This document shows positions 15,173-58,819 of a stretch of 64,000 nucleotides of DNA, piece by piece; positions within the stretch are counted from its first letter, which is position 1, and each line of letters opens with the position of its first letter. The DNA is taken from the NCBI RefSeq assembly GCF_000383955.1, contig NZ_KB913013.1:1890277-1954276 (forward strand), given 5' to 3'. The notes beneath the pieces are model-generated. The model had not been told where the DNA came from and did no database searches. It saw only the letters and a program-made list of their open reading frames with translations. The position numbers and the translations under genes were made by a program. The DNA comes from Rudanella lutea DSM 19387 (GTDB lineage: Bacteria; Bacteroidota; Bacteroidia; Cytophagales; Spirosomataceae).

Positions 15173-15256
15173 TGAGTGAGAGAGTGAATGAGCGAAAGAG
15201 TGGTGCTAAGTACCTGTTTCGCTCTTTCACTCTTTCACTCATTCACTCATTCCACA
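15171..15256. repeat. Simple-word imperfect inverted repeat (GAGTGAATGAGCGAAAGAG type)
   Basis: The left arm begins at the rbfA stop codon with AATGAGTGAGAGAGTGAATG; the right arm ends just before the next ATG with TCACTCATTCACTCATTCC. Both arms are built of repeated 4- to 6-base words and pair imperfectly. An ORF start at 15188 falls inside it and is not used. Confidence 0.55.
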
Positions 15257-16489
15257 ATGAATCTGCCCTTCTTTATTGCCCGCCGGTACTTTTTCACACG
15301 TAAAAAACGCGGCTTCATCGGCTGGCTCTCCATCCTGTCTATTATCGGGGTAGGCGTTGGTACGATGGCGCTTGTGGTGGTGCTGTCGGTATTCAACGGC
15401 ATGGAAGAGCTTAACCGAACCTTGTTTCGCTCGGTAGAGGCCGACCTGACCATTTCGCCCCGGCAAGGCAAACGCTTTGAGGCTCCCCCCACCCTACTCA
15501 CGGCCCTCGGTCGCACACCCGGCGCCGACCTGGTTACGCCCGTCATTCAGGACAATGCCCTCGCCCGGTACAACGGCGCGCAAACCGTAGTGACCGTAAA
15601 AGGCGTGGCCAACAACTATTTGCAACGTTCGCAGCTCGACTCGGCCCTCGTCGACGGGCGGTTTCGGCTCCAGACCAACGGCATCAACTACGCCATTGTG
15701 GCCGAAGGCATCCGCAACGACCTGAGCATTGTGACGCAGGACATTCTGACCCCGCTCGAACTGCTGTACCCGCAAAATCAGAGTGGTAGCCGAACGCTCA
15801 ACTTACTGAGCGAAAACGCCTTTTCGACGCAGGCCCTGACGGTGTCGGGGGTGTTTTTTGTAGACGCCCAGCAGTACGGTGATTTTGTGATTGCCCCCCT
15901 GCCCGTTGTGCGCGAACTGGTGGGCTACGGCCCCAACGAGCTGACGAGTATTGAGCTGCAATTGAAACCCGGCACCGATCTGGCAGCGGCCAAGGCTGCC
16001 GTACAAACGCTGGCCGGCGATAAACTCCTGGTACGCGACCGCGACGACCTGAATGTAGACCTGTACCGGGCCATCAACATCGAAAAGCTGACCGTGGGCC
16101 TTACGCTTTCGTTTATTATCCTGATTGCGTCGGTCAATATTTTCTTCTCGCTCTCGATGCTCGTCATCGAAAAGAAAAACGACATCCGTACCCTCCTGGC
16201 ACTCGGTGCTACACCAGGTCTTATTCGGCGGGTATTCCTCACCGAGGGGGCCATCATCTCGCTTTCTGGGGCTGTTACGGGCTTAGTGCTGGGCGTTGGG
16301 CTGTGCTGGTTACAGGAACGGTACGGGCTTGTGGGCGTTGGCACCACCTCGTCTATCATCGACGCTTACCCGGTCCGGGTCGATACAACCGACCTTTGGA
16401 TCACAGCCCTGATTGTACTCGGTATTACGGCCCTTACCTCGTGGTTTCCGGCCCAGCGAGCCGCCAAAATCCGCCAGACAACGAATTAA
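15257..16489 (+). CDS. FtsX-like ABC transporter permease (LolC/LolE type)
   Basis: 410 aa from the ATG at 15257 (MNLPFFIARRYFFTRKKRGF); the open extension to 15188 lies in a repeat. One N-terminal membrane helix (about 20-45), a large periplasmic domain (45-270) and three C-terminal helices make the MacB/LolC topology. LolC-type motifs include RGFIGWLSILSIIGVGVGTMALVVVLSVFNG (given in part) and SLSMLVIEKKNDIRTLLALGA. In a Lol system such a permease, with an ABC ATPase, releases lipoproteins from the inner membrane. No ATPase is adjacent. Its stop codon abuts an E1 element. Confidence 0.9.
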   Translation: MNLPFFIARRYFFTRKKRGFIGWLSILSIIGVGVGTMALVVVLSVFNGMEELNRTLFRSVEADLTISPRQGKRFEAPPTLLTALGRTPGADLVTPVIQDNALARYNGAQTVVTVKGVANNYLQRSQLDSALVDGRFRLQTNGINYAIVAEGIRNDLSIVTQDILTPLELLYPQNQSGSRTLNLLSENAFSTQALTVSGVFFVDAQQYGDFVIAPLPVVRELVGYGPNELTSIELQLKPGTDLAAAKAAVQTLAGDKLLVRDRDDLNVDLYRAINIEKLTVGLTLSFIILIASVNIFFSLSMLVIEKKNDIRTLLALGATPGLIRRVFLTEGAIISLSGAVTGLVLGVGLCWLQERYGLVGVGTTSSIIDAYPVRVDTTDLWITALIVLGITALTSWFPAQRAAKIRQTTN

Positions 16490-16713
16490 GTGAACAATGT
16501 AGAATGTAGAATGCATTTCAGTACTGGACATTCGGACTTCAGACACTGGACGTTAGACTTACTACCATTCTGTAGGTAGGTCTAATGTCCAACATCTAAT
16601 GTCCAGTACTGAAGAATGCATAACAAATAGCTTGATTAGCTACTGGCAATCAGCGATTTCATTATGCATTTTACACTATTCATTATACATTCAGTTCTGC
16701 TTGATTACACCTA
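16487..16713. mobile_element. E1 element copy a, split by an E2 element
   Basis: E1-family sequence between TA dinucleotides at 16487-16488 and 16712-16713, interrupted by E2 at 16517-16613. Without E2 and one 8-bp repeat its length is 122 bp, close to the 117 bp of the other three copies. Left end AAGTGAACAATG, right end GATTACACC. The left TA is part of the LolC-type stop TAA and the right TA part of the nuclease stop TAG. Removing the element leaves the two convergent genes overlapping in TTAA, each with a TAA stop. Confidence 0.7.
16517..16613. mobile_element. E2 element copy a (97 bp, 16-bp perfect terminal inverted repeats, 8-bp direct repeat)
   Basis: TTCAGTACTGGACATT at 16517-16532 is perfectly inverted at 16598-16613. 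GAATGCAT directly flanks it on both sides (16509-16516 and 16614-16621), as expected for a target-site duplication. The intact E1 copy at 54389 has this target only once. A second internal inverted repeat (TGGACGTTAGAC / GTCTAATGTCCA) lies inside. No coding capacity, so a MITE-like passenger that needs a transposase in trans. Confidence 0.75.
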
Positions 16714-34422: not shown

Positions 34423-34478
34423 TACCCATACGGTACGGGATTCAATGATTGGGTCTCGCCGGTCGTTTAACAGTCTAC

Positions 34479-35360
34479 ATGGCGCGTAGAAAGAAAAAAG
34501 TTGGTCGGTACCCCGGAGGTCTCATCTTGTTCAGCATGACGGTGGCCCTGTTTCTGATTGGGTTTTGCGGTTTGCTGGCTCTCCAGTCGAAGCGGCTCGT
34601 GACGTATATCCGCGAAAACTACGAGGTACGGGTGTTTCTGGACCGCGACATCGACTCTGCAAAAGCCGAACCGGTGTACAAAAAGATTGTGGCTCGCCCG
34701 TACGTGCTGACGGCCAACGGACAGCCGCAGGTCAATTTTGTGAGCCGCGATGCCGCAGCCCGCGAGTTTATTGCCGAAACCAAAGAAGATTTCAAGACGT
34801 TTCTGGACGATAACCCCCTGCACGACAGCTACCGAATCCGGCTGGCCGAAGACTACTTCGAAGAGGCTAAACTGCAGGCGGTCAAGAAAGACCTGGAGGC
34901 TATCGACGGTATTTCGGAGGCCGTGTACCAGGAGAACCTGGTCGATACGATCAACCGTAACATCAATAAGATTTACATTGTGATGACGGGCTTTGCGGTG
35001 GTGCTGCTGCTCATCATTGTGTTGCTCATGAACAACACCATTCGGCTGGCGTTGTATTCACAGCGGATGCTCATTCGGAGTATGCAGCTGGTAGGTGCCA
35101 CCAACGGGTTTATTACCCGCCCCTTTCTCTTGCGGGGCTTGTGGCAGGGCCTGCTGGCCGGACTGATTGCCTCGGGTTTGCTGGTGGCTTTACAACAGGC
35201 GGCCGTGTATAACCTGCCCGAATTGGCGGTGTTGCAGGAGCCCGTGAAAATAGCGATGGTGCTGGGGGCGCTGGTGGTACTGGGCATGCTGATTGGTTTT
35301 GTTAGCACCTATCAGGCCGTACACCGTTACTTAGGCGTTTCGCTCGACGAACTGTATTAA
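34479..35360 (+). CDS. ftsX: Cell division protein FtsX-like permease
   Basis: 293 aa from ATG 34479 (MARRKKKVGRYPGG); a TTG at 34449 is possible but less likely. One N-terminal membrane helix (about 18-38), an extracytoplasmic domain (about 40-160) and three C-terminal helices form the FtsX topology. FtsX with the ATPase FtsE controls septal peptidoglycan hydrolases. FtsE is not adjacent. In Bacteroidota the order ftsX - DUF3098 - uppP - truB - ribF is common, which supports the call. An E1 element begins within the stop codon. Confidence 0.9.
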   Translation: MARRKKKVGRYPGGLILFSMTVALFLIGFCGLLALQSKRLVTYIRENYEVRVFLDRDIDSAKAEPVYKKIVARPYVLTANGQPQVNFVSRDAAAREFIAETKEDFKTFLDDNPLHDSYRIRLAEDYFEEAKLQAVKKDLEAIDGISEAVYQENLVDTINRNINKIYIVMTGFAVVLLLIIVLLMNNTIRLALYSQRMLIRSMQLVGATNGFITRPFLLRGLWQGLLAGLIASGLLVALQQAAVYNLPELAVLQEPVKIAMVLGALVVLGMLIGFVSTYQAVHRYLGVSLDELY

Positions 35361-35474
35361 GAGAATGTACAATGAATAGTGTGTACTGAATAATTGGTTT
35401 GTGTGCTGGCTATCAGCCCTTTCATTATACATTTTACACTGTTCATTATACATTCAATTCAACTTCAGTACTTA
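35358..35474. mobile_element. E1 element copy b (117 bp)
   Basis: Between TA (35358-35359, inside the ftsX stop TAA) and TA (35473-35474). Left end AAGAGAATGTACAATG, right end CAACTTCAGTACT. The inner part has the family signature of repeated AATGTAAAATGAATA-like words and GCTGGCTATCAGCC in the middle. It lies inside an operon, between ftsX and the DUF3098 gene. Confidence 0.7.
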
Positions 35475-54258: not shown

Positions 54259-54264
54259 CCAACG

Positions 54265-54336
54265 CCACCGCCCGCCGTTTCCAACCTTTTCCTCGCTTTC
54301 AGACTCTTAGCTACGCAGACGTCTCGTTCTGTGTAG
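54265..54336 (+). repeat. Direct repeat R, copy 1 (72 bp)
   Basis: 72 bases matching 55408-55479 with two differences. They start CCACCGCCCGCCGTTTCC and end CGTTCTGTGTAG. In copy 2 the sequence forms the end of the split ORF at 55098-55453. The pair flanks the lipoprotein gene at 54623. Confidence 0.75.
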
Positions 54337-54388
54337 TTAACTCTGTAGCTCTGGGCCATCGAACCCGTAGTTCTAAACAAACTTGTCT

Positions 54389-54505
54389 TAAGTGAATGGA
54401 CAATGTAAAATGCATAATGAACAATTGTGTTAAATGCTGATAATCAACCATCTCATTGTCCATTTTACACTATTCATTTTACATTTAATTCTGCTCAACT
54501 ACTTA
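54389..54505 (+). mobile_element. E1 element copy c (117 bp)
   Basis: Bounded by TA at 54389-54390 and 54504-54505. Left end AAGTGAATGGACAATG, right end CTCAACTACT. It is close to the reverse complement of copy d (55201-55317), with the same 117-bp length and about 85-90% identity by eye. It is an intact, uninterrupted reference copy for the family. Confidence 0.75.
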
Positions 54506-54584
54506 TAGCCAGAAACCTTACAAAAAACTGTAAAAAAATTTGTGCCTATTTTACTCAGTCCAAGATATTTAGACTACTGACGTG

Positions 54585-54592
54585 TAAGTTTG
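54585..54592 (+). promoter_or_regulatory. Candidate -7 box (TAAGTTTG)
   Basis: Exact TAnnTTTG match 30 bases upstream of the lipoprotein ATG. No -33 TTTG at 19 bases. Confidence 0.35.
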
Positions 54593-54622
54593 AAGCATGG
54601 TTTAACATAACTGGTTACTATC

Positions 54623-55069
54623 ATGCTCAAACAAATTATCCTGCTCTGGTTCAGCATACTGAGCCTTGTCTTCACGCTGTCCTGCCGCAAAAAACAGCCC
54701 GAAATCATCGAGCCACCCGATCCATCTTGTGAGAATGGGAGCTGTTGCGATATAGGGCATAATGTAGAATTCCTGAAGCACCTTAACGGTGAACTTGCTT
54801 TCTACGATGGACGAACATCCCTACGCTTTAAGGAGGCTCAGTATATTCATAAGCTCTTCGACGGACCTGTTGGTATAAAAGGTTTTGGGGTATGCCCTCA
54901 AACGTATAACAAATTACCACGAATACCATACGATGGTCGAAACGCTGAGGAGGTGACCCAGTACAATTACAAAGTTTGGGGACGGGCCTGGAAGTCAAAA
55001 GAGGTCTTTGATTTTAGCGGTCTTCCACGAATCTTAATTGCAGTCGACCGAATGGAAGTAGTTAAGTAA
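54623..55069 (+). CDS. Small lipoprotein of unknown function
   Basis: 148 aa. Signal peptide MLKQIILLWFSILSLVFTLS followed by Cys21 in TLSCRKKQ, a clear lipobox. The mature part starts with a Pro/Glu linker and a Cys-rich patch (CENGSCCDIG) followed by a compact domain (GELAFYDGRTSLRFKE, GIKGFGVCPQTYNKLP, YNYKVWGRAWKSKEVFDFSG) likely to be beta-rich. The late block (VWGRAWKSKE, LPRILIAVDRMEVVK) resembles small exported Bacteroidota proteins with an OB-like fold, but no family is certain. It is flanked by R and E1 repeats. Base composition is richer in A and T than the neighbours, which hints at acquisition. Confidence 0.75.
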   Translation: MLKQIILLWFSILSLVFTLSCRKKQPEIIEPPDPSCENGSCCDIGHNVEFLKHLNGELAFYDGRTSLRFKEAQYIHKLFDGPVGIKGFGVCPQTYNKLPRIPYDGRNAEEVTQYNYKVWGRAWKSKEVFDFSGLPRILIAVDRMEVVK

Positions 55070-55097
55070 TCATTCTCTACATCAAATCCACATTCAC

Positions 55098-55453
55098 ATG
55101 CGAACATCTCTAATTTCACTTCTGCTTGGCATACTCATTGCTGGGGGGGGGTATCTCTTCACTTTATGCCCAACCGGGGCAATCCAAGTTTAAGCCCAAG
55201 TAAGTACTCGGACAAAATTAAATGTAAAATGAATAGTGTAAAATGTACAATGAGATGGGTGATTATCAGCAGGTAATACAATTGTTCATTATACATTTTA
55301 CATTGTCCATTCACTTACCTGCGCGAAAACAACCGGGCTTTCCAACAGCTAACGGCCTACGCTTCTGACGATGGGTGGCTGGAGTTTCGGGCTTACAGAC
55401 TACAAACCCACCGCCCGCCGTTTCCAACCTTTTCCTCACTTTCAGACTCTTAG
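55098..55453 (+). pseudogene. Small exported-protein ORF broken by a 9-G tract and by E1 copy d
   Basis: ATG 55098 opens a signal peptide (MRTSLISLLLGILIAGGG). At the run of nine G (55143-55151) the given frame shifts to a stop; with eight G it reads on into ISSLYAQPGQSKFKPK, a typical AxA-like cleavage region. There E1 copy d (55201-55317) interrupts. Removing the element with one TA joins KPK to YLRENNRAFQQLTAYASDDG and gives a clean ORF of 79 codons plus stop at 55451-55453; the total is divisible by three only after both repairs. The end overlaps repeat R2. No family recognised. Confidence 0.65.
55201..55317 (-). mobile_element. E1 element copy d (117 bp), inserted in an ORF
   Basis: Bounded by TA at 55201-55202 and 55316-55317, in reverse orientation to copy c. 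The flanks read CCCAAG-TA and TA-CCTGCG; with a single TA they restore an open frame across the site. This is the best evidence that E1 moves and duplicates TA on insertion, as Tc1/mariner (IS630)-type elements do. It has no coding capacity. Confidence 0.75.
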
Positions 55454-55479
55454 CTACGCAGACGTCTCGTTCTGAGTAG
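55408..55479 (+). repeat. Direct repeat R, copy 2 (72 bp)
   Basis: Second copy of the 72-bp repeat at 54265-54336, with two differences. It begins inside the end of the split ORF and ends 31 bases before the next lipoprotein ATG. Confidence 0.75.
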
Positions 55480-55510
55480 CTCGTATATCAACACAAATCT
55501 GTTACGCAAC

Positions 55511-55930
55511 ATGAACACCTTCTTTCACAAAACAGCAGCAACCCGCCGGGTAGGGGCCGTGCGTCTGCACCAGCAGAAGCGAAGAGGTCTGTTACTTCTG
55601 TGCACCTGTACGCTATGGCTACTGGGAGCTTCCTGTGAGCGAAAAGGCTCGGTAAGCCCCCAAAACGACTGTTTGGCGGGTGCCATTAAAGACCGTATTG
55701 TCGACGTGAAAGGAATCATGCGTCTGCAAGGCTCTCCAAGGGCACCCGAAACAACCTGGTACATCGTTCGCGAAAACCCTAATTCACTGCCTTTGGTCAT
55801 TTGCGGAGAAACCCCCAAAACACTTCAGGTGGAAGGCTTGCCCATTACTTTTTCGGGCGAAACGCAAACCCCAGCTTACATAGGCAGAGGGGCATTTGGG
55901 TATGTGAAACTGGAAAAATATTCAAACTAA
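55511..55930 (+). CDS. Small lipoprotein of unknown function
   Basis: 139 aa. The N-terminus is long and basic (MNTFFHKTAATRRVGAVRLH, QQKRRG), then a hydrophobic stretch ending in LGASC with Cys42, a good lipobox. The mature part has two Cys (NDCLAG and LVICGETP) and strands (GIMRLQGSPRAPETTWYIVR; LQVEGLPITFSGETQTPAYI) that suggest one compact beta domain. No family recognised. It lies 13 bases before the decayed protease gene on the same strand, so the two may have been one unit. A start after the basic stretch is not available, so the long n-region stands. Confidence 0.7.
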   Translation: MNTFFHKTAATRRVGAVRLHQQKRRGLLLLCTCTLWLLGASCERKGSVSPQNDCLAGAIKDRIVDVKGIMRLQGSPRAPETTWYIVRENPNSLPLVICGETPKTLQVEGLPITFSGETQTPAYIGRGAFGYVKLEKYSN

Positions 55931-55943
55931 ACTTTACACCTGT

Positions 55944-58433
55944 ATGAAGATCTTTCACAAGACATTTTGCACATGGGTGAAGCTTTCTTACCTTTTGCTC
56001 TGTTTTACACAGTACTCGGTGGCTCAACGAATTTGTGGTAGTACTTTCACTAAGTCAAGCTGAAATTGAAAGGCTTAATAATTTCAATAACTATGTTAAC
56101 TCCTTTCAGCAATCAGCTCCTACACGTGTCATTCCAAATACACCCATTCTTTTAAACCAACAAGTATCCTCAGAACCTGTCATTCTAATTCCTGTAGTAG
56201 TTCATGTTATCCACAATACGGATGCACAGAATATTAGCGATGCGCAAATTCGTTCACAGATAGATGTTTTAAATGAAGATTTTAGAAGAGCGAATTCAGA
56301 CGCATCACAAACACCTGCAAGATTTGGAACTGCGGACACTCGTATTCAATTTTATCTTGCATGTAAAGATCCAGATGGTAACCCAACAAATGGTATAGAA
56401 CGGTTCAGAACCTCAGCTATAGGTTTCACTCTAAATAACTTAGACGCAGTGAAACAGGCCGGAGTTGGTCTTCCAGCATGGGATAGCAATAAGTACCTCA
56501 ATATATGGTCATGCAACTTCATAGATGCTACGTTAGGAGTAGCTACATTTCCAATAAGTTTGGCTAATAGACCTAATTTTGATGGTATTGTGGTAAGATT
56601 TAACGCACTTGGTAAGACAGGGAATCTCTTACCAGCTTTCAATCTTGGGCGTACCGCAACCCATGAGGTAGGTCACTGGCTAAACCTAATTCACATCTGG
56701 GGAGATGATGACTTAGATAACTATGCTCCGAATGGGGCTTACATAGGTGATATATTAGGAAATGATTGTAATGGGACAGATGAAGTAGCCGACACGCCAA
56801 ATCAGGCAATTAGTACAAATGGATGCCCAAATGTTGTTGCCGGGTGTACACCTGGGGAACAAGCCATGTTCATGAACTACATGGACTACACTGACGACCG
56901 ATGCATGAACGCGTTCACATTCGGCCAAAAAATCAGAATGCGAGCCAATTTTGATACTGGTCAGCCCAGAGGTGCCTTTCAAAAACAGGAATATTCTATT
57001 AGCGGGCCTGCCATTCTGGGAAGTTATCAGATAAATGGAAATCAGTTATCCGTTGTTTTCCCTGAACGTACCTATACGCTTAACGGAAACCTGCCAGCCG
57101 GGGCAGTCACAACGTGGTCGGTTGGGCCGGGCGTTACCCACCTCCTGCCCCCACCTGTTCGGTGCCGGCCAACGCCTGTTATACCATTCAGGTCCAAAAA
57201 ACGGGTCAGCGGTTGCAGGCGATGAGTGATGGCCGTATTATCCAACAGGGGGCCAACAACCAGAACAACCAAATCTGGCGGGTTGATGACCGGGGCAACG
57301 GACGAGTCAGTTTTACGGTACAGGACGGCACCAACCGGGCTATCCGCACCAGCAGCGGCAACTTTGGCGAAGCTCTGAGCTTAAGCACGTATGTTGCCAA
57401 CGGCCAACAGGACTGGGCGTTGGCCTGTAACCCCGCCGATAACACCCTGTGGCGGATAACGTACCCCAACAACAACCATAACACCTGGGATGTACAGGAC
57501 TACGGCAATGGGCCCAACCTGCAAATCTGGGGCAACACAACCGAGCCTTTCTATGACTACCGCTCGTTTCGGTTTCAGGCCGTTACCTGCCCTACTACCC
57601 CTACCCCACCACCGCCCCCACCCACCGGCACACTCACCTTTCAGACGGTAAGCTACGACTGCAACACGGGCGTGTGGCAGTGGCAATTTACGGGCGGCAA
57701 TGGTGCCCAAATTGAAACCTGGTGTCCGGGCGCATTTGGCAACCGACTTATTAGTGCCAACAGTTTGCAAACCGTAACGCTGGATGCAAACCTCCGCAAC
57801 GGCACTACGTTTACCATCACGGCCGTTCAGTCGGGCCAAACGTTTACCTACACGTTTGGGGCTTCGTGCAGTGGCGGAACCACACCCCCACCACCACCCC
57901 CATCAGGCGGAGCCTTAACCCTTATTGCGCCCACGTTTAGCTGTTCAACGGGCGACCTCACCATCAACACCTCAGGCGGCAACGGTTCGGCCATCGAATA
58001 CCAGATTCCGGGGCTTCGTGGCTGGGGAAGCAGCCCCACCATGAACGTACCCACCTGGCAACGTAACGGCACTACGTTTACGTTACAGGCCCGTCAGTCG
58101 GGTGTGGAGGCTCCTTCGTATTCGTTTCAAACCAACTGTGGGAGTGCTCGTTTGGCCGCGTCTGTTGCCACCGAACCGGGCGATAGGTTACGCGTTAGCC
58201 CCAACCCAAGTACCGGGCAGGCTCGTGTACGCTATAAACTGGCCAATGGAGAGCAGGCAACGTTCACTGTAGAGTCGGCAGCTGGCAAAACTCTGTTTAG
58301 CCTGCCTGTTACAGGGACCGAATATGACCAGGAAACAGACATTGATCTGGGTCAGCAGGCAGCCGGGATGTATTTTGTCCGGTTACGAAACCCGACCACC
58401 AACGAGGTCGCCAAGCTACTCATTCAGCGTTAG
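55944..58433 (+). pseudogene. T9SS-exported pappalysin-like (M43) metalloprotease with lectin domain, two frame breaks
   Basis: Three pieces in different frames. ATG 55944 gives a signal peptide ending SVAQRICGSTFTK, then TGA; the frame shifts near 56055 into AEIERLNNFNNYVNSF. The middle piece (to 57225) is an M43 protease with the zinc motif HEVGHWLNLIHIWG and the Met-turn YMDYTDDRCMNAFTFGQ. Near 57140-57160 the frame changes again, into a ricin-type lectin domain (QRLQAMSDGRIIQQGANNQN, WDVQDYG), two 80-residue modules, and a T9SS sorting domain (SPNPSTGQARVRY to the end). Predicted secreted protease or lectin; as sequenced it cannot be made as one chain. Confidence 0.75.
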
Positions 58434-58454
58434 TTGCGTTTGCAACACCATACC

Positions 58455-58506
58455 GGCACACAAGGCGTAACAAAGAGCGGCATCGGCTCGTTACGCCTTG
58501 TGTGCC
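58455..58506 (+). terminator. Hairpin terminator after the M43 gene
   Basis: Perfect 17-bp stem GGCACACAAGGCGTAAC/GTTACGCCTTGTGTGCC; the 18-nt loop can fold further (GAGC/GCTC). No long T-run. Confidence 0.7.
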
Positions 58507-58537
58507 ATTCTCGCTTTCCCACCAACCTATCTTTCGT

Positions 58538-58819
58538 ATGCCCATTCAGACCTTCCCGCAGGCTATAGCCCTTATTGAGCGCATCGACCGGCTCATTCGC
58601 CAACGCGCCACCGGCACCCCCGAGCAGATGGCCGAGCGGCTGGGCATTTCGCGCAGCACCTGGTTCAACTACCTCACCGTGCTCAAAAATGACCTCAACT
58701 TTCCGGTCGAATACGACCGCGAGCATCAAACCTATTACTACAGCCTGCCGGGGGCGTTTCGGGTGGGGTATGTGGTGGACGAGGAAAGTGTCATTTCGGT
58801 CAATGACCTGGCCAATTAA
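58538..58819 (+). CDS. Small helix-turn-helix protein (HTH_11/DeoR-like)
   Basis: 93 aa from the ATG at 58538 (MPIQTFPQAIALIERIDRLI); an earlier frame start at 58502 is less likely. Residues 15-55 form a winged-helix type HTH (TPEQMAERLGISRSTWFNYL) like those at the N-terminus of DeoR/YafY regulators, and the rest is a short beta tail (YYSLPGAFRVGYVVDEESVI). There is no ligand domain, so it is a minimal regulator. Next is a Tat-exported oxidoreductase gene on the same strand, 54 bases on; control of it is possible but not shown. Confidence 0.8.
   Translation: MPIQTFPQAIALIERIDRLIRQRATGTPEQMAERLGISRSTWFNYLTVLKNDLNFPVEYDREHQTYYYSLPGAFRVGYVVDEESVISVNDLAN

Follow-up and report, generated by a model that had tools for sequence, protein, structure and literature searches.

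The window that we analyzed is a 64,000-nucleotide stretch (G000:C1:1890277-1954276) of the 6.5-Mb Rudanella lutea genome. It contains four copies of a short repeated element, E1, a unit of 117 bp that has the ends TAAGTGAATG...GACTACTTA, a TA on either side and the consensus TAAGTGAATGAACAATGTAAAATGTATAATGAACAATTGTATTACCTGCTGATAATCAGCCATCTCATTGTACATTTTACACTATTCATTTTACATTTAATTCTGTCTGACTACTTA. Three simple copies are each exactly 117 bp when counted from TA to TA, in agreement with the original prediction: one on the plus strand at 54389-54505 (TAAGTGAATGG...CAACTACTTA); one at 55201-55317, which runs on the minus strand, opposite to 54389, is 96% identical to the consensus and lies within the decayed start of an M4-peptidase gene; and an old plus-strand copy at 35358-35474, which is 76% identical to the consensus and whose place is also occupied in R. 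paleaurantiibacter HX-22-17 (G001), the nearest named relative (97% protein identity) and our comparison genome. The fourth copy, on the plus strand at 16487-16713, is split by a nested element, E2; as predicted, it measures 227 bp, or 122 bp without E2 and its 9-bp duplication. Its R. paleaurantiibacter ortholog is 114 bp long and lacks the nested element.

The copy at 55201 had been predicted to split an ORF of 80 codons. Once this copy is removed along with one TA and one G, the frame does run for 79 codons and then a stop, and among the G-run lengths tried (6-10), only the 9-G run at 55143-55151 minus one G restores the frame; what is restored, however, is a remnant and not an original gene. 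The 5′ piece (55098-55200, plus strand) encodes a signal peptide and an M4-type peptidase start, and contains the frame-breaking 9-G run. In the 3′ piece (55318-55453, plus strand), peptidase homology continues to near residue 59 of the restored ORF, and the last ~20 residues derive from a local duplication, a 71-bp direct repeat whose plus-strand copies at 54266-54336 and 55409-55479 are 97% identical and are the only two found in the genome; the second copy is the source of the 3′ end of the ORF. The homologues of the broken ORF are the N-termini of long secreted peptidases that combine FTP and M4 domains and whose open frames reach up to 775-1001 codons; they are unbroken across the restored junction (KPKYLREQ in G002 and QPKYLREN in G008 vs KPK|YLREN in R. 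lutea, with the bar marking the junction). The residue created by the restored TA is conserved in these homologues. Since homology ends near residue 59 and is followed by a duplicated stretch, E1 split a gene remnant rather than an intact 80-codon gene: the restored ORF is the frameshifted, already truncated start of a longer secreted M4-type peptidase gene. Copy 55201 inserted into a peptidase gene in decay, and this insertion accounts for the broken gene that the window contains. In L052, the closest relative with synteny, a remnant of the 54623 gene is retained, without the 80-codon ORF. We also observed that the surrounding stretch, 54259-58755, is accessory and carries a pair of lipoprotein-like ORFs together with a gene for a secreted, metalloprotease-like product.

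A BLAST search of the whole R. lutea genome with the 117-bp sequence, which the original prediction had proposed as a check, returned 44 matches in about 41 places, with E-values down to 1e-55, so E1 recurs well above chance. About 30 places were found in R. paleaurantiibacter, and E1 is absent from the two other genomes of the genus that were searched. The ends of the element are fixed: of the 40 copies fitted to the consensus, 21 have a length of exactly 117 bp, and in many of the rest the difference in length is a multiple of 7 (7, 14, or 21 bp). The core of E1 is a hairpin in which both arms are built from 7-bp repeats, (AATGNAN)n and its complement; across all copies, identity at a lag of 7 is 0.44 vs 0.29 in shuffles (shuffle maximum 0.31). 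Folded as RNA, the consensus is predicted to form a long hairpin at -28 kcal/mol. Further copies, fixed ends and a frame contiguous across the insertion point in relatives, the three points on which the original prediction could have failed, were all found.

Empty sites in a related genome provide a natural record of how the element is inserted. We joined the flanks of 18 E1 copies with one TA and searched for them in R. paleaurantiibacter, where 14 of the sites could be scored, 10 as empty and four as occupied (35358, 16487, L016, and L038). At five or six of the empty sites, TA-E1-TA is replaced exactly by a single TA. The site of L019 fits a join with one TA at 41/42 positions vs 25/40 with none and 28/44 with two; a one-TA join likewise fits better than none or two at L014, L017, L018 and L024, while the site of L009 fits with one extra T, and several of the empty sites have diverged flanks. 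The replacement of TA-E1-TA by one TA at natural empty sites shows that the TA target is duplicated, as had been predicted. The presence of both occupied and empty sites indicates that E1 moved before the two species separated as well as afterwards, and the family provides insertions that can be dated between two sequenced species. For copies 54389 and 55201 there is no empty site to compare, because R. paleaurantiibacter has 26 bp in place of R. lutea 54259-58755.

The window contains no IS630-type (DDE_3) transposase, as the original prediction had noted, and only three matches occur in the genome, all on contig C2. One IS630 element, at C2:24917-26041, has the inverted ends TAAGTAATCAAGCA and a frame in two parts, helix-turn-helix and DDE_3, both of which match IS630 models; the catalytic piece matches PF13358 (DDE_3) with an E-value of 2e-32 and the NCBIfam IS630 transposase model NF033545 at 108.1 bits (cut-off 100). 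The two pieces of the frame lie around an A8 run, and the R. paleaurantiibacter copy has the frame shift too, making programmed frameshifting at this run plausible from the sequence. The expectation that an IS630 transposase with matching ends would be found was borne out for one end of E1. The right end, TAAGTAGTCAGACAGAATTA, which we also compared in the copy at 54389, agrees with the IS630 ends at 15-18 of 20 bases; the left end, TAAGTGAATGAACAATG, agrees at only 10-12 of 20, so that the predicted AAGTGAAT end matches poorly and E1 shares a terminus with the resident IS630 on its right side only. The IS630 end motif TAAGTARTSRRRCAGAATTA has 42 and 53 matches in two Rudanella genomes, compared with 0 and 1 for a reversed control. 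In R. paleaurantiibacter, an IS630 element with the ends TAAGTARTCAAGCAGAATTA directly adjoins an E1, as part of an end-to-end array of another IS630-ended MITE, the IS630 element and E1.

E1 is short, has no transposase gene of its own and is dispersed in about 41 places, and the TA duplication together with the match to IS630 ends identifies it as an IS630-type MITE. The assignment to the IS630/Tc1 group had been an inference in the original prediction and now has direct support from the single-TA empty sites and from end-matched IS630 elements in the same genome. Judged from sequence comparison, E1 is very probably a non-autonomous MITE family whose movement depends on an IS630-type DDE transposase acting in trans. 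This enzyme would recognize the ends of the element, about 20 bp in length, with TAAGTAGTCAGACAGAATTA on the right, and would insert E1 at a TA dinucleotide, leaving a TA on each side. The particular IS630 transposase described above is the candidate mover, and the poorly matching left end presumably retains its function.

E1 is a new IS630-type MITE that is ordinary in kind, with the pneumococcal RUP as its analogue; our literature search found no paper in which Rudanella and a transposase appear together. IS630-Spn1 has been put forward as the mover of RUP, the repeat unit of pneumococcus (Oggioni and Claverys, 1999; see PMC2229807 and PMC3049150 for reviews). Likened by description, as an analogue, RUP resembles E1 in size (107 vs 117 bp), in its terminal TA, in short terminal repeats common with a resident IS630, and in being non-coding, mostly intergenic and an occasional breaker of genes. 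E1 differs in its host phylum, in the 7-bp-repeat hairpin of its interior, and in that its IS630 ends recur around another hairpin, that of E3. The Correia/NEMIS elements of Neisseria are likewise miniature, palindromic, bounded by a terminal TA and often found beside genes (PMC2229807; PMC10969869), but by description they are of another length and have a longer TIR of 24 bp (PMC2229807). Nezha, from cyanobacteria, is also a MITE for which a resident IS, in that case ISNpu3-like, has been proposed as the mover (PMC3049150); compared by description, its host and its partner IS differ from those of E1. The intergenic TAACTGA heptamer repeats of Beggiatoaceae, cyanobacteria and some Bacteroidetes (PMC4679880) share the 7-bp period; however, they are direct repeats of one fixed heptamer, whereas E1 carries the degenerate heptad AATGNAN as a hairpin.

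The origin of bacterial MITE interiors is an open question in the field, and a review poses the question of whether chromosomal sequences that already existed were captured to give the MITE motifs (PMC2229807). In Rudanella, two MITE families have IS630 ends in common and contain different hairpins that are also found without these ends, making capture directly testable. For the heptad hairpin, four out of the five loci inspected in R. lutea have no end-like motif within 100 bp, and these stand-alone hairpins have centres other than that of E1. A sister genus (G010) has 86 pattern matches to heptad hairpins (e.g., L130-L142, L193-L210, and L260-L274), at which no transposon ends were found, and no IS630 DDE domain was detected in its genome. 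A phylum-wide scan recovered the strict heptad hairpin in 3 of 296 genomes, and it is therefore not a general feature of Bacteroidota. The second family, E3 (L225-L231 in R. paleaurantiibacter), is a ~150-bp MITE with IS630 ends on both sides of a GTCATCCCGACG hairpin core, and this core is matched without IS630 ends in G002, G006, G008, G010 and G018. The free heptad hairpins, together with E3 in which the same ends are paired with another free-living hairpin, suggest capture of free-living palindromes by IS630 ends as the simplest reading. With less certainty than for the mode of movement, the E1 interior would most likely be an intergenic palindrome that already existed when IS630 ends came to enclose it. 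The fuller proposition is that IS630 ends repeatedly captured free hairpins (the heptad hairpin in E1, GTCATCCCGACG in E3), that MITE interiors are ready-made palindromes and not IS remnants, and that arm-to-arm copying maintains the match between the arms of the heptad hairpins; we advance this combination tentatively, at somewhat below an even chance.

For the interior alone, it is quite possible, if short of probable, that the heptad core arose within the MITE by slippage and that the hairpins of other genera are alike by convergence. The length differences among E1 copies, which are often multiples of 7, are in keeping with slippage, as is the occurrence of heptamer repeats in some Bacteroidetes and cyanobacteria (PMC4679880). 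The stand-alone heptad hairpins with other centres in R. lutea itself argue against this origin, and so does E3, whose hairpin is a different one and occurs free in the five genomes named above.

The proposal of arm-to-arm copying draws on the equal-armed hairpins of G010. The two arms match perfectly in 17 of 23 copies, compared with 1.8% for arms taken from different copies, and arm complementarity extends at least 4 bases into the unique flanks in 8 of 23 (0.09 expected). From this match within copies and its extension into the flanks, we consider that one arm was probably copied from the other (e.g., by template switching), or that pairing is under selection. A separate observation concerns an E1 copy in R. 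paleaurantiibacter (L255, C32:48600-48980) with near-perfect arm complementarity over about 35 bp, unlike the consensus, which looks like arm-to-arm copying.

The position of E1 relative to genes bears on whether the hairpin has a function of its own. Only 6 of 40 E1 sites are open through 300 bp, compared with 70% of random window segments, indicating that genic sequence is avoided. In the window, two ORFs end in a TAA stop codon formed by the first three bases of an E1 copy: an FtsX-like permease ORF at 34449-35360 (copy 35358) and an ABC permease-like ORF at 15188-16489 (copy 16487). Because both E1 ends begin with TAA, a copy that inserts at a stop codon's TA preserves a stop in either orientation. 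E1 lies at stop codons in 6 of 31 cases compared with 6.4% of TA sites (p = 0.012), an excess that is confounded by the intergenic bias. This bias, the stable predicted fold of the consensus, and the stop codons supplied to two upstream ORFs are all compatible with a non-mobile functional RNA or regulatory hairpin, such as a terminator or an mRNA stability element, that is kept at the 3′ ends of genes. We nevertheless regard such a role as very improbable, given the clean single-TA empty sites and the copy inside a gene remnant. Across 27 E1 copies, compensatory change was seen in 1 of 22 predicted pairs, which gives no sign of selected RNA structure, and an Rfam search with E1 gave one weak match far below the cut-off and none over the cut-off of any family.

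A REP-like identity for E1, in which a single-strand transposase (Y1, of the IS200/IS605 or RAYT type) would move the palindrome, is extremely improbable. The palindromic, intergenic and many-copied character of E1 and the sister genus's bare heptad hairpins, which show no transposon ends, would agree with such an identity, but E1 duplicates its TA target and its right end matches those of a DDE IS630. IS200/IS605-type elements are not known to duplicate their target, and the TA duplication rules out a REP or IS200/IS605-type identity for E1; the bare heptad hairpins may still be of this type.

The element nested in copy 16487 belongs to a family distinct from the IS630-type MITE that it interrupts. 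E2 occupies 16517-16612 (96 bp, TTCAGTACTGGAC...GTCCAGTACTGA) and is flanked by the 9-bp duplication AGAATGCAT at 16508-16516 and 16613-16621. Members of the E2 family are about 96-105 bp long and have the ends TTCAGTACTGGACATT and arms that also show a 7-bp period. Two Rudanella genomes each contain >50 matches, and most of the copies that we read have target duplications of about 9 bp.
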